Source of the DNA: Candidatus Tectimicrobiota bacterium
Lineage (GTDB): Bacteria > JACPSX01
Direction of reading: 5' to 3'
Assembly (NCBI GenBank): GCA_016193065.1
Contig: JACPSX010000198.1
Location: 1 to 18,065 of the forward strand
DNA length: 18,065 nucleotides
The notes below the pieces were generated by a model. The model was not told the origin of the DNA, searched no databases, and saw only the letters and a list, made by a program, of their open reading frames with translations. Each line of letters opens with the position of its first letter. Position 1 is the stretch's first letter. The position numbers and the translations under genes were made by a program. This document shows positions 7,800 through 13,161 of the stretch, in pieces.

Positions 7800-7832
7800 C
7801 TTTTCTTAAAGGTTTGCAGGTTGCCAGGGGAT

Positions 7833-8348
7833 ATGGAAAAAAGGAAACCAAGCTGTTCAAGACGCAAGATTCTTCAAGGGTTTGGGGCCGCCGGGACGGC
7901 CGGCCTGATTCTCGGCAGCAGCTATGTTTCTTTGAACTTCTTTTCTCCCAAAGCCTTGTACGATCCTCCAAACCGGTTTCGGGCCGGCAAGCCCGATGAT
8001 TTCCTGAACAGCAAGGTCACGGAAATCTGGAAGGAAAGCCAGAAGATCTGGCTGGTACGGTCGGCTAGCGGACTCCATGCTCTCGTGGCGGTCTGCACCC
8101 ATCTGGGGTGTACTCCAAACTGGTTTCCGGAAGAGGAGAAGTTTAAGTGCCCATGCCACGGCAGCGTTTTTAACCTGAAAGGAGACGTGGTCTCGGGACC
8201 GGCTCCCGAGCCTTTATTTCGAACTCCCATTGTCTTGAACGAGAAAGGAGACCTGATCGTCGGCACCGGCAACTTGGGGATCCGCCTCCCCGAGCAGTCA
8301 AACCGTGAACCCCAACGTTCCGGAGAAGGTTTCTTGATCCGTGTGTAG
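7833..8348 (+). CDS. petC: Rieske [2Fe-2S] iron-sulfur protein of a cytochrome bc complex
   Basis: High-potential electron carrier that takes one electron from quinol at the Qo site and hands it to cytochrome c. From ATG 7833 it has 171 residues. The N-terminus carries a Tat-type signal/anchor (S-R-R-K-I-L-Q-G at 9-16, hydrophobic to about 35). The cluster-binding boxes are C-T-H-L-G-C at 88-93 and C-P-C-H-G-S at 106-111, giving two Cys and two His ligands plus the disulfide pair. TTG 7821, in frame with AAAGG 8 nt upstream, is a possible alternative start; AGGGG lies only 2 nt before the ATG. It is the first gene of the operon, followed by both cytochrome b halves. Confidence 0.95.
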   Translation: MEKRKPSCSRRKILQGFGAAGTAGLILGSSYVSLNFFSPKALYDPPNRFRAGKPDDFLNSKVTEIWKESQKIWLVRSASGLHALVAVCTHLGCTPNWFPEEEKFKCPCHGSVFNLKGDVVSGPAPEPLFRTPIVLNEKGDLIVGTGNLGIRLPEQSNREPQRSGEGFLIRV

Positions 8349-8399
8349 GGGTCCCCTGTTGGGATACCCTGGTTCACCTAAATACTTCGGGGGCAAACT

Positions 8400-9161
8400 A
8401 TGACCGAGGGGGAACACTTCAAAGAAAAACTGTTCCGTTCGCAACTCTGGCGGTCGGTTTTTCGCCATCCTTACCCGCGCTCCCCCCGGGAGGAGCGCCG
8501 TCGATCCCGGACCAACTTCTTCCTGCACCTCCACCCCCCCGTCATTGAAAGGGAGCGGCTCAAGATCTCCCAAACCTGGGGCCTGGGGGGGATTTCCTTC
8601 CTCTTGTTCCTGATCCTCGCGTTCAGCGGTGGACTGTTGATGTTTTACTACCGCCCATCCGTAGAACACGCCTACCATGACATGAAGGATCTGGAATATG
8701 TGGTGAGCTTCGGCCCGTTTTTGCGCAACCTCCATCGCTGGGCAGCCCACGCGATGGTGATTACGGTCATTGCCCACATGGCCAGGGTCTTCTATGCCGG
8801 TTCTTATCGTCCCCCCAGGGAACTGAACTGGGTGGTGGGGATCTCCCTACTGGTGTTTACCCTCTTGCTGAGCTTTACGGGATACCTCTTGCCCTGGGAT
8901 CAGCTTGCCTACTGGGCCGTCACAGTCGCAACCCACATGGTGCGGGCTGCCCCTCTCATTGGAGCAGACGGGCCCTTGACTCTGGTCCGCTCTGGAGGAG
9001 ACTTAAGCGCCCTCCTGCTTGGGGCAAGGACAGTGAGCGCGCCGAGCCTGCTGCGCTTCTATGTGCTGCATGTTTTTCTGCTCCCCTTGGCCATGGCGGC
9101 ATTAATCGCCTTCCATTTCTGGCGGGTCCGCAAAGACCGGATGATCCGGAAGCCCCTGTGA
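8400..9161 (+). CDS. petB: Cytochrome b N-terminal (b6-type) subunit
   Basis: Membrane diheme subunit of the quinol:cytochrome c oxidoreductase, 253 residues. Heme b ligands are H112 and H126 in one helix (L-H-R-W-A-A-H, then I-A-H-M-A-R-V-F) and H224 and H239 in a later helix ([11 protein letters not shown] to A-F-H-F-W-R-V-R-K). The second pair is 15 apart, as in cytochrome b6 rather than mitochondrial-type b. Y-L-L-P-W-D-Q near 162-168 is the conserved Qo-side motif. About 50 hydrophilic residues, rich in Arg, precede the first helix. GGGGG about 6 nt upstream serves as ribosome site. The stop lies 20 nt before the next gene. Confidence 0.95.
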
Positions 9162-9181
9162 ACCGGGGAGGAAAGATAACC

Positions 9182-9982
9182 ATGGAAACTGGGGAAAGAT
9201 CAGGAGCAGAGGGGCAAAGCAAGGAAGCCGCTCTGGCTGTGCGGGCGCCCCTTCCATCCTTTCCGGGAAGACCTTCGGAGGAAAAAGAAAGCAGCCTCGA
9301 ACCGCAGAGAGTCCCCACTTTCCCGAACCTGGTCTACATTGAATTAATCGCCGCTCTGGCAGTGACCGCCCTGCTCATTTTTCTTTCCCTCGGGTTTGAC
9401 GCCCCGCTTCAGGAAATGGCCGATCCGAACCTAACTCCGAACCCCTCCAAAGCCCCGTGGTATTTCGTAGGGTTCCAGGAGCTTCTCGTTTACTTTGACC
9501 CCTGGATCGGAGGATTTCTCATTCCCCTGATGATCATTGTCGGACTCATTCTCTTCCCTTACCTGGACCCGACACGAAAAGAAGGCGAAGGCTACCGGTT
9601 CCGGGACCGCCCGCTGGCAGTCACAATCTTTACGGCGGGGCTGACCCTCTGGTTTGTCTTGATCGCGTTGGGATCTTGGTTTCGAGGCCCAAACTGGCAG
9701 TTTTACTGGCCCTGGGAGTCATGGAACATCGAGAAGCCCCTTCCGAAACAAACCACGACTCTGCCGGCCGCCATTGGCATCTCCATACTGATTGGTTACC
9801 TGGCAGCGGGCTTTACACTCCCGGCAATCTTCTTGAAAGGACTTCTGCGGCGGCTGGGAATTGTCCGATATCTCTTGTTCGCGGGGATTCTCTCGATGAT
9901 GGGCGGAGTGTTCCTCAAGATCGGGCTGCGCCTGCTCTTCAACGTGAAGTATGTCCTCCAGACCCGCTGGTTCAACCTCTAG
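9182..9982 (+). CDS. Cytochrome b C-terminal (subunit IV-like) protein
   Basis: Second half of a split cytochrome b, 266 residues, supplying part of the Qo pocket. The recognisable block is N-P-S-K-A-P-W-Y-F-V-G-F-Q-E-L-L at 87-102, followed by F-D-P-W-I-G-G and L-F-P-Y-L-D-P. The usual PEWY motif reads A-P-W-Y, so its glutamate is missing. I count about five hydrophobic segments (50-72, 111-128, 144-166, 194-217, 230-252), more than the three of subunit IV, plus a hydrophilic N-terminus of about 45 residues. ATG 9182 is preferred over an upstream in-frame GTG (9158) because GGGGAGGA at 9165-9172 fits it. It forms the bc core with the preceding two gene products. Confidence 0.9.
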   Translation: METGERSGAEGQSKEAALAVRAPLPSFPGRPSEEKESSLEPQRVPTFPNLVYIELIAALAVTALLIFLSLGFDAPLQEMADPNLTPNPSKAPWYFVGFQELLVYFDPWIGGFLIPLMIIVGLILFPYLDPTRKEGEGYRFRDRPLAVTIFTAGLTLWFVLIALGSWFRGPNWQFYWPWESWNIEKPLPKQTTTLPAAIGISILIGYLAAGFTLPAIFLKGLLRRLGIVRYLLFAGILSMMGGVFLKIGLRLLFNVKYVLQTRWFNL

Positions 9983-9997
9983 GAGTCGGGTGAGGAA

Positions 9998-12043
9998 ATG
10001 AGGGACTTCTTTTTTGGACTCTTCGGTTTGGCAGTCCTCCTTGGACTCGGAGCGGTCATCTGGCAACATAACCAGCGGCCCTGGGTTCGATATCAGAGGG
10101 AGTTTTATGCCCAGAAGGAGAAGCTCCTGATCGAGGCGAAAAACAAGGCCCGGGATGTAAGGGAAACGGAGCGCCTTGATCGCGAGATCGAGAAGATCCG
10201 GGCAACATCCCCGCAGGTGCAGCAGATTGCTCTGAGCCATCTCAATTGGGCCGACCGTTGCACGACCTGTCATCTGGGGATCGAGGATCCCCAATTCAGC
10301 AACGCACCCCAACCCTTCAGGACTCACCCGGAGCCCTTTCTCTCCTGGCACCCCCCGGAACAATTCGGCTGCACCCCTTGTCACCGCGGGCAGGGCTTGG
10401 CAACAACCCGCGATGCTCACGGAGGAGCCAGGAATTGGAAAGAACCCATGCTGCCCGCTGAATTCCTGGAAGCCTCCTGCGCGACATGTCACCGCAATCT
10501 GACGAAGCGTGTGGCTCCCATCTGGTTCCGGGGTCGAGAGCTTGTTGATTTCCTGGGTTGCCGGGGCTGCCATGCGATTGGAGGCCTGAAGTCTGCGGAA
10601 AAAATCGGGCCTCCCCTGAACAACGAGAGCCGAAAGGTGAAGCCCGGCTGGCTGCTGAACTATCTCAAGGATCCCAGAAAGTACTCCGCCGAGACCCGTA
10701 TGCCGAACTACAAGCTCCCGGAAGCGGAGACACTCGCCCTGCGGGATTTTCTCATGACCCTGCGCACAGACCCGGACCCGGCAGAGGCAGTCCGATGGGA
10801 TCCCGGAGAAAAGCAAGCGGCCCGCGGCAAGAAATTGTTTGAAGATCTCGGTTGCCTGTCCTGCCACGCACTGGCCGCCGCGAAACCGGCGGGATTTTTC
10901 CAGGCCCCCAAACCAGGCCCCGAGCTGAGCCGGATCCGGGAAAAGATCAACCCGGTCTGGCTGGTGAATTACTTGATGGATCCCTCTAGGGTACAACCCG
11001 GGACCCGAATGCCCCTCTACCGTCTGACCCGGGACCAAGCCCAGGATCTGGCTGCATTCCTGTTGAGCCAAAACGCGGAGAATAGCAAGGACCAGGATGG
11101 AGAACCCGCTTTCCAGCCCGATCCGGCCAGGGCCCGGGAAGGGAAAGGGCTCGCGATCAAGTACAACTGTGTCGGTTGCCATGAAATCGAGGGGATCCGC
11201 CAGGGAGAAGCGGGCCCTCCTCTGGATGGAATCGGCGGCCGCAACGTGGAGCGCCTTGATTTCGGCTCCAATCCCAAAGGGAAAGACCGCAGCCTTTACT
11301 CCTGGCTCGAAGCAAAGCTGACGACCCCGAGAACCTATCGGGAGGGGCTCAAGATGCCCGAAGTGAACCTAAGAAGAGGGGAAGAAAAAGCCGTCGTCAC
11401 GTTCCTGTTGAGCTTGGTGGCAAGACCCTTCCCCGAACTGCACCCAGAGGGTACCCGGGTGGCGGCTCCGCATACTCTGGAGCCTGCCGTACCCTCCGGC
11501 GGACCGGCCGGCACCCTGTGGAGAAAACTCCAGTGCACAAGCTGCCACCGGATTGGAAACTCGGGGGGAAGCATCGGCCCCGATCTCAGCGGAGAGGGGA
11601 GCCGCGTGCGCCGGGCCTGGCTGGAACAATACCTGAAAAGGCCAAAACCCCTTCGCCCCCTTCTCCAAGCCCGGATGCCCGACTTCCATCTCCAGGACTC
11701 CGAGGTCAGGATCCTGGCCGACTTTATTTCAACCAGCCTCTGGTCGCAAGACGTCGGAAGGAATTCTCGGGGGTCCCTGGATTTGTCCCGGGAAACCGCG
11801 GAAAAGGGCAGGCTCCTTCTTAGAGAATCCGGCTGCATCGGTTGTCATGAACTTGAGGGTAAGGGAGGAAAGGTAGGCCCCCGCCTCGACCGGATCGCTG
11901 AGCGCCTGAACGAAGACTGGATCCGGGCTTATCTAAAAGATCCCCAGAGGATGTTTCGGGGGGCGGCCATGACCCCTAACTATGGCTTCGACGACGAGCA
12001 GATCCGGGCTCTGACTGCCTATTTGCTCAGGGGAGTTCCATGA
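9998..12043 (+). CDS. Membrane-anchored octaheme c-type cytochrome with tandem mono-heme domains
   Basis: Predicted electron acceptor of the bc complex, 681 residues. It has one N-terminal membrane segment (about 4-22) and a charged helical stretch to about 80. Eight C-x-x-C-H heme sites follow: 88, 125, 161, 188, 286, 391, 513 and 613. The first three are closely spaced. The last five are each followed by a repeated cytochrome c module: G-P-x-L, a W-L-x-x-Y-L-x-D-P type helix, and a probable distal Met in T-R-M-P (M235, M338), K-M-P (M453), A-R-M-P (M560) and A-M-T-P (M658). This suggests internal duplication of a mono-heme domain. Most of it should lie in the periplasm. Its stop overlaps the next start in ATGA. 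Confidence 0.93.
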   Translation: MRDFFFGLFGLAVLLGLGAVIWQHNQRPWVRYQREFYAQKEKLLIEAKNKARDVRETERLDREIEKIRATSPQVQQIALSHLNWADRCTTCHLGIEDPQFSNAPQPFRTHPEPFLSWHPPEQFGCTPCHRGQGLATTRDAHGGARNWKEPMLPAEFLEASCATCHRNLTKRVAPIWFRGRELVDFLGCRGCHAIGGLKSAEKIGPPLNNESRKVKPGWLLNYLKDPRKYSAETRMPNYKLPEAETLALRDFLMTLRTDPDPAEAVRWDPGEKQAARGKKLFEDLGCLSCHALAAAKPAGFFQAPKPGPELSRIREKINPVWLVNYLMDPSRVQPGTRMPLYRLTRDQAQDLAAFLLSQNAENSKDQDGEPAFQPDPARAREGKGLAIKYNCVGCHEIEGIRQGEAGPPLDGIGGRNVERLDFGSNPKGKDRSLYSWLEAKLTTPRTYREGLKMPEVNLRRGEEKAVVTFLLSLVARPFPELHPEGTRVAAPHTLEPAVPSGGPAGTLWRKLQCTSCHRIGNSGGSIGPDLSGEGSRVRRAWLEQYLKRPKPLRPLLQARMPDFHLQDSEVRILADFISTSLWSQDVGRNSRGSLDLSRETAEKGRLLLRESGCIGCHELEGKGGKVGPRLDRIAERLNEDWIRAYLKDPQRMFRGAAMTPNYGFDDEQIRALTAYLLRGVP

Positions 12044-12573
12044 AGTTTCAAAGAATCAAAGCCAGGATCCGCTTCTTCCCCTGGGTGGTTCTGTTCGTCA
12101 TGGTGACCGCGGCGGGTGGCTGCTCGGGCGGGGATCAGACTGCACTTGAAACACAACCTCTCCTGGTCAAGAAGCGGGTTTCCGAGCGGGTCTGGCGCGG
12201 AAAAGAAATTTACGTTTCTCACTGCGCCGCCTGCCATGGTCTCCAGGGACGCGGGGATGGACCAAACACAGACCGCCTGGAGCGCCCCCCTCGGGATTTC
12301 ACTGCAGCCGAATTCATGGCAGCCAAGACAGACGATTATCTCTACCGGGTGATTGCAGGAGGCGGCAAGTCGGTGGGTCTTTCCTCTCTAATGCCCCCCT
12401 GGGGCAAAACCCTAAATACGGAAGAAGTTTGGGATCTGGTCAAGGTCCTGCGGCAATTTTCCCAATCTTCCCCTCTGGACAGCAGCCGCCAGGCTCACGG
12501 GACAGCAGAAGGAGGGAGCGGCCCTCACCAGGGAGAACAATCCGACCCGATTTCTCAAAAAGGAAGGAGGTGA
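12040..12573 (+). CDS. Monoheme cytochrome c, probable lipoprotein
   Basis: Small periplasmic electron carrier, 177 residues. The signal peptide (K2, R5, R9, R11, hydrophobic to about 25) ends in A-A-G-G-C, a plausible but imperfect lipobox with Cys28 because position -3 is Ala rather than Leu. One heme site C-A-A-C-H is at 62-66, followed by G-L-Q-G-R-G-D-G typical of class I cytochrome c, and L-M-P-P-W-G gives the distal Met at 118. The tail after about 145 is low-complexity and hydrophilic. It is translationally coupled to the octaheme gene by ATGA and likely relays electrons from it. Its stop lies inside the strong ribosome site of the next gene. Confidence 0.92.
   Translation: MKFQRIKARIRFFPWVVLFVMVTAAGGCSGGDQTALETQPLLVKKRVSERVWRGKEIYVSHCAACHGLQGRGDGPNTDRLERPPRDFTAAEFMAAKTDDYLYRVIAGGGKSVGLSSLMPPWGKTLNTEEVWDLVKVLRQFSQSSPLDSSRQAHGTAEGGSGPHQGEQSDPISQKGRR
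12564..12573 (+). promoter_or_regulatory. Full-length Shine-Dalgarno of the PCYCGC-type gene
   Basis: AAGGAGGTGA matches the entire anti-Shine-Dalgarno core of 16S rRNA, and the GGAGG ends 6 nt before ATG 12577. It includes the TGA stop of the cytochrome gene. It is the strongest ribosome site I noticed in the window. Confidence 0.85.
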
Positions 12574-12576
12574 ACT

Positions 12577-13047
12577 ATGGGCAACAAAAAAAGAAAGGCT
12601 CCAAAGAGTGAAGAGCCGCTTTCTCCACCCAAAAAACAGGGGAAAGCGGCGATTCTGGTGCTGGCTCTGGCTGTCATCCTCGTCGCGGCTGTCGGGATTT
12701 ATTACATCAGCCGCCCGAGTGCCGGCCCGGCCCGCACATCTCAAGCATCCCCGGCGGAGTATCCGAGGAGAGAGACCAGACCGACTCTCTCTCCGGCCAT
12801 GTTCACCGGGGAAGTCGCGGCGACTTATCAGGTGGCCCAGGAGATCCCCGAAGTCCTGGACCAACTCTACTGCTACTGCAAGTGCCGGGAGAACTTCGGG
12901 CACAAGAGCCTTCTGACTTGCTATGTCGATCGCCACGCATCGACCTGACACGTCTGCTTGGATGAGGCGCAGTTGGCGTCTCAAATGCACAAGAAAGGGG
13001 CAACGCCCCAGGAGATTCAAAAGGCCATCGACCGGCAGTTCGGCTAA
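12577..13047 (+). CDS. Probable selenoprotein: membrane-anchored PCYCGC-type protein with in-frame TGA (Sec124)
   Basis: Read through TGA 12946-12948 the product is 156 residues ending at TAA 13045-13047. K/R-rich residues 3-23 precede one membrane helix (about 24-44), so the rest should face the periplasm. The domain reads L-Y-C-Y-C-K-C at 97-103, G-H-K-S-L-L-T-C at 108-115, then D-R-H-A-S-T-U-H-V-C-L-D-E-A, with Sec124 and Cys127 as U-x-x-C. From memory, PCYCGC proteins have H-A-x-x-C-x-x-C here and an A-I-D-x-x-F/Y-G end, as seen after the TGA, so the TGA replaces a family cysteine. A SECIS-like hairpin follows. Other genes here end in TGA, so this is not code change. Alternatives are a sequencing error or a nonsense mutation, giving a 123-residue product. 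It closes the bc operon; its reaction is unknown, probably thiol or metal redox. Confidence 0.75.
12963..12983 (+). promoter_or_regulatory. Candidate bacterial SECIS hairpin
   Basis: TGAGGCGC (12963-12970) pairs with GCGTCTCA (12976-12983) as an 8-bp stem with one G-U pair around the 5-nt loop AGTTG. The loop begins 23 nt after the TGA and has G as its second base, within the rules I recall for bacterial SECIS elements (loop about 16-37 nt from UGA, a G among its first two bases). CTTG 12957-12960 and CAAG 12990-12993 could add a lower helix. Confidence 0.55.
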
Positions 13048-13061
13048 TCCGACAAACGACC

Positions 13062-13161
13062 CGGGAGGCGGCTCTCCCAGGCCCTCCGCCGACGGGCCTG
13101 CGGGAGCTGCCTGCCCGGAATGGGCAGGTCAGACGGAAAAGCGGCGGGGTCCGATCCCGCC
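13062..13161. promoter_or_regulatory. GC-rich hairpin cluster after the bc operon
   Basis: Three inverted repeats follow the selenoprotein gene: GGGAG/CTCCC at 13063-13078, CCTGCCC/GGGCAGG at 13110-13128 with a 5-nt loop, and GGCGGG/CCCGCC at 13143-13161. None has a T-run. They may end or attenuate the operon transcript before the ferritin promoter. Confidence 0.4.

Follow-up and report, generated by a model that had tools for sequence, protein, structure and literature searches.

The CYCXC family, also described as hypothetical protein OS_HP4, is listed among the predicted bacterial selenoproteins. In a 2026 review (PMC13188914), the entry 'CYCXC family protein (hypothetical protein OS_HP4), PF13798, UxxC' appears as a high-confidence predicted selenoprotein, and the family is credited there to Zhang and Gladyshev 2007 and their work on the Olavius symbiont. 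OS_HP4 is likewise listed with a UxxC motif in a 2022 review (PMC9312934). A relative with cysteine in place of selenocysteine (Sec) is the PCYCGC-type protein of Parageobacillus, a lipoprotein of unknown function (PMC13068155). The CYCXC/PCYCGC family as a whole is still annotated as of unknown function.

The gene considered here lies in a contig of a Candidatus Tectimicrobiota bacterium, and the window is the whole 18,065-nucleotide stretch that was analysed. It is a new member of the known CYCXC selenoprotein family and not the discovery of Sec in that family. A sequence-only reading of the window had known of no report of Sec among these proteins; that view gives way to the NCBIfam entry, NF041379, which is named 'CYCXC family (seleno)protein', and to the review listing. 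Since the family is already listed, the novelty of the gene is low. What the analysis adds is confirmation of probable Sec use in the PCYCGC/CYCXC family across several unrelated lineages, together with gene neighbourhoods that offer a testable lead on function. The main features are collected in Table 1.

Table 1. Position and basis of the features discussed in the text.
Feature	Position	Strand	Description	Basis
Bc-type operon upstream of the CYCXC gene	7821..12573	+	Rieske, cytochrome b N part, cytochrome b C part, multihaem c, small c-type cytochrome	ORFs, NCBIfam
AGGAGG, ribosome-binding-like	12565..12570	+	Shortly 5' of the start codon	Sequence AAGGAAGGAGGTGAACTATG
CYCXC/PCYCGC-family gene	12577..13047	+	156 residues, probable Sec at residue 124	Translation, NF041379, PF13798, alignment
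In-frame TGA	12946..12948	+	Probable Sec codon	TGA or Cys in relatives at the same column
SECIS-like hairpin	12963..12983	+		Fold; pairing across seven relatives

A family reading frame that continues past TGA

The reading frame contains a single in-frame TGA, at residue 124, followed by 32 sense codons HVCLDEAQLASQMHKKGATPQEIQKAIDRQFG and a TAA. As the sequence-only reading had proposed, the residues beyond the TGA are family-like. The translated protein scores 132.4 bits against NF041379, for which the equivalog cut-off is 90 bits, with residues 67-155 aligned to positions 1-89 of the 90-position profile. Pfam PF13798 (PCYCGC) is matched as well, with a score of 51 bits where the cut-off is 25, and the post-TGA part lies inside this match too; the earlier assignment to the PCYCGC type is thereby upheld. 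Since the NF041379 match spans the post-TGA part, which also aligns with relatives, coding beyond this codon is not a matter of chance. Third-position GC content is alike on the two sides of the TGA (0.68 before and 0.78 after). Standard gene calling would cut the gene at residue 123.

From its N-terminus, the protein presents a hydrophobic segment at about residues 24-44, the C-Y-C-x-C motif, a histidine, a cysteine, a second histidine and the predicted U-x-x-C. Compared with described members of OS_HP4, which it resembles over almost the whole model and in the likely placement of Sec within U-x-x-C, the gene shows no difference other than its host lineage and its position behind a bc-type cytochrome operon. 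The cysteine pattern is shared with PCYCGC proteins, from which it is distinguished by having C-Y-C-K-C instead of P-C-Y-C-G-C and by the probable Sec at the U-x-x-C site. Also unlike the PCYCGC type, it has a transmembrane-like segment and no evident lipobox. An AlphaFold model built from three sequences places a helix at residues 24-44; because its confidence is low (mean pLDDT 60), the model says little on function. Among solved structures no relative of the protein was found, the best match having an E value of 0.015 and covering only the N-terminal part.

TGA or cysteine at one column

The NF041379 profile was searched against the genome of the window and 97 others, none of them closer to it than the same domain. 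Matches were found in 9 of the 98 genomes, 8 of them above the cut-off, and more genomes were then drawn from the phyla of three TGA-bearing genomes (G031, G097 and G072), which added few. Seven other genomes share the TGA at this column of the alignment (G031, G047, G072, G084, G097, G098 and G101; the G084 match, at 55.7 bits, is under the cut-off). Cysteine occupies it in five genes: one each in G005 and G062, the other of the two G072 copies, and the loci L009 (Nitrospinales) and L010 from named metagenome-assembled genomes. In G072, the TGA-type and Cys-type genes (L036 and L037) lie on different contigs. A further genome, G060, has no in-frame stop within its NF041379 match. The TGA therefore aligns with cysteine in some homologues and with TGA in others, which bears out the earlier proposal that it occupies the first cysteine of a C-x-x-C motif and would give U-x-x-C.

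Conservation extends across this column. Ten aligned relatives share, in the numbering of the window protein, C99, Y100, C101 and C103 of the CYCKC motif (residues 99-103), then H109, C115 and H120, and finally C/U124 and C127 of the predicted UHVC motif (residues 124-127). Beyond the TGA, C127, A134 and G141 are invariant in the alignment of relatives.

A SECIS-like hairpin

Just 3' of the TGA, the transcript may fold into a hairpin that presumably serves as a bacterial SECIS element, whose general form it fits. Its stem of 8 bp pairs 12963-12970 with 12976-12983 around a five-base loop, AGTTG (12971-12975), which has G at its second position and starts 25 bases after the T of TGA. The fold of 12958-12985 has a predicted energy of -12.4 kcal/mol and a z score of -3.7, for a span chosen after the fold was seen; over the 45-base stretch 12946-12990 the z score is -1.3, so that the hairpin is significant over its own span only.

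Comparison among relatives adds to this picture. The seven TGA genes align without gaps, placing the hairpin at a constant distance after the TGA, and pairing is retained in 71% of cells of the alignment as against 27-52% with slid partners, a level reached by 8 of 500 shuffles. Covariation is modest: in four pairs both partners have changed. The C-G pair that closes the loop is kept in all seven TGA genes and the G at the second loop position in most of them, and in the Cys genes the hairpin is mostly absent at the corresponding place. Collectively, these properties lend moderate support to a SECIS-like hairpin at this site.

Selenocysteine machinery and alternative readings of the TGA

Earlier, selA, selB, selC and selD had been named as the genes to look for, and the search bore this out in part. 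The genome of the window has selB (370 bits) and selD, the latter twice (410 and 382 bits); each selD gene has its own in-frame TGA where Sec is usually encoded, in the contexts AGUGCK and AGUAGK. The two selD genes are distinct loci (L033, G000:C175, 8424-9350; L034, G000:C120, 3960-4886), and one of them is found on the selB contig, which also holds genes resembling a phosphonate/phosphate-type ABC transporter. By contrast, selA and selC were not found: two models gave no selA match in an assembly that is 86% complete and divided into 294 contigs, and no tRNA-Sec emerged from this assembly with either the Rfam model or a model built from eight relatives, with 150 out of many first-look candidates scored. 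The top tRNA-Sec matches that were scanned with ARAGORN are tRNAs for Trp, Ser, Leu and others, none of them Sec. The start of selB lies 269 bases from a contig end, and the 268 bases 5' of it (contig C175) contain neither an end of selA nor a cut tRNA-Sec. Since selA adjoins selB in four relatives (G031, G047, G084 and G101), a gap at this contig end could hide selA.

Among the seven TGA relatives the machinery is nearly complete. A strong tRNA-Sec is found in all of them (70-78 bits), selA in six and selB over the cut-off in six. In G072, for which completeness is given as 97%, neither selA nor selB exceeds the cut-off, yet a tRNA-Sec is there. In G005, which has only the Cys form, searches for selA, selB and tRNA-Sec were all negative. 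Codon and machinery do not correspond in both directions, since G062 has the Cys form yet carries the machinery.

With these results in hand, the competing accounts of the TGA can be weighed. If it were a real stop, arising from a mutated or mis-sequenced Cys codon, the gene would be a truncated or miscalled Cys-type gene. The failure to detect selA and tRNA-Sec in the incomplete assembly would fit such a loss, as would the TGC found at the corresponding codon in some relatives. However, the same TGA recurs in seven other genomes, most of them with the full Sec machinery, conservation continues in frame past it, and selB and two TGA-bearing selD genes share the genome, all of which make a genuine stop very improbable. 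More improbable still is that a reassigned or suppressor tRNA inserts one of the ordinary amino acids (Trp, Gly or Cys) at UGA. A bin without detected selA and tRNA-Sec is compatible with that account, but TGA is a normal stop in the window, where it ends 10 of 18 genes or long ORFs, as the claim that it is not reassigned genome-wide had anticipated. Moreover, the TGA falls exactly on a family cysteine, and no tRNA with a UCA anticodon occurs among the loci of the same genome scanned with ARAGORN, which cover part of it.

Selenocysteine at residue 124 is thus very likely on sequence grounds, given the TGA/Cys column, the hairpin, selB, the two TGA-bearing selD genes and the presence of the machinery in most TGA relatives. 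UGA at codon 124 would be decoded as Sec by SelB with tRNA-Sec, and insertion would be directed by the hairpin about 17 to 38 bases downstream of the TGA. Taken as a whole, the reading of this gene as a CYCXC (OS_HP4, PF13798) selenoprotein with Sec at UGA 124 and a periplasmic redox or metal role is given a probability of roughly 0.93.

Gene neighbourhoods and possible function

The predicted product is anchored by a single pass through the membrane, and some 80 residues would form a domain outside it. This outer domain would bear the C-Y-C-x-C motif, the additional conserved cysteines and histidines, and U-x-x-C. Upstream, the operon listed in Table 1 matches NCBIfam models for Rieske/PetC, cytochrome b6/ExtP, ExtQ, SoxX-like and ExtS c-type domains, although most of the scores fall short of the equivalog cut-offs. 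The multihaem c-type protein of this operon has 681 residues. The closest described counterpart is the Ext operon for selenite/tellurite reduction, whose ExtP, ExtQ and ExtS are resembled by the upstream cytochromes at 260, 59 and 77 bits. As all three scores are below the curated cut-offs of 290, 150 and 100, these genes were not classed as an ext operon.

The position of the gene at the end of a bc operon, to which the sequence-only reading had drawn attention, is right for this genome and has parallels in two others; it is not general. In G031 the order is CYCXC, Rieske, cytochrome b, cytochrome b and multihaem c, and in G005 it is CYCXC, an AhpC/TSA-type redoxin, a small ORF and cytochrome b, so that CYCXC genes stand beside bc-type cytochromes in three lineages. 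Elsewhere, a YHS/heavy-metal-domain protein is the neighbour in G072, whereas G062 has CusCBA-type efflux genes at this place. On plasmids of the Burkholderia group, Cys-type PCYCGC genes (L102 and L103) lie within copper-handling clusters with CueR or a copper-binding protein, a multicopper oxidase, HiPIP and DsbD; TlpA and a Rieske protein are also among the neighbours there. On a Paenibacillus plasmid, a heavy-metal P-type ATPase and an ArsR-type regulator are nearby.

Based on the C-Y-C-x-C and U-x-x-C motifs, the conserved histidines and these neighbours, the best guess is periplasmic binding of copper or another soft metal, or thiol redox work. Through either activity the protein may support c-type/bc respiratory proteins. 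Alternatively, the selenoprotein may be unrelated to copper or the bc complex, for example as a general periplasmic disulfide reductant. This account competes with the functional part of the preferred reading only, with which it overlaps in confidence, and it is a possible though less favoured one. Redoxin- or thioredoxin-like neighbours in G005 and G072, DsbD and TlpA on the Burkholderia-group plasmids and the UxxC motif itself point towards it, whereas the recurrence of copper genes beside family genes in unrelated phyla argues for the metal-linked role. A narrower proposal is that the CYCXC selenoprotein acts in several deep lineages as a dedicated accessory of the bc-type quinol-cytochrome c complex, holding a selenol at the outer face of the membrane as a copper/thiol redox partner. 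Such a specialised role seems doubtful, and no description of it for the CYCXC family was found in the literature.

RNA features after the gene

An Rfam scan of the window returned nothing at gathering scores. Weak matches to mir-2796 and Pxr at about 12989-13122 are far under the cut-offs and were taken as chance. In the interval that separates the CYCXC gene from the ORF after it, positions 13057-13122 fold into a GC-rich hairpin of very high predicted stability (about -50 kcal/mol and z -4.1 for the fold of 13050-13130), which is possibly a terminator-like or repeat element.
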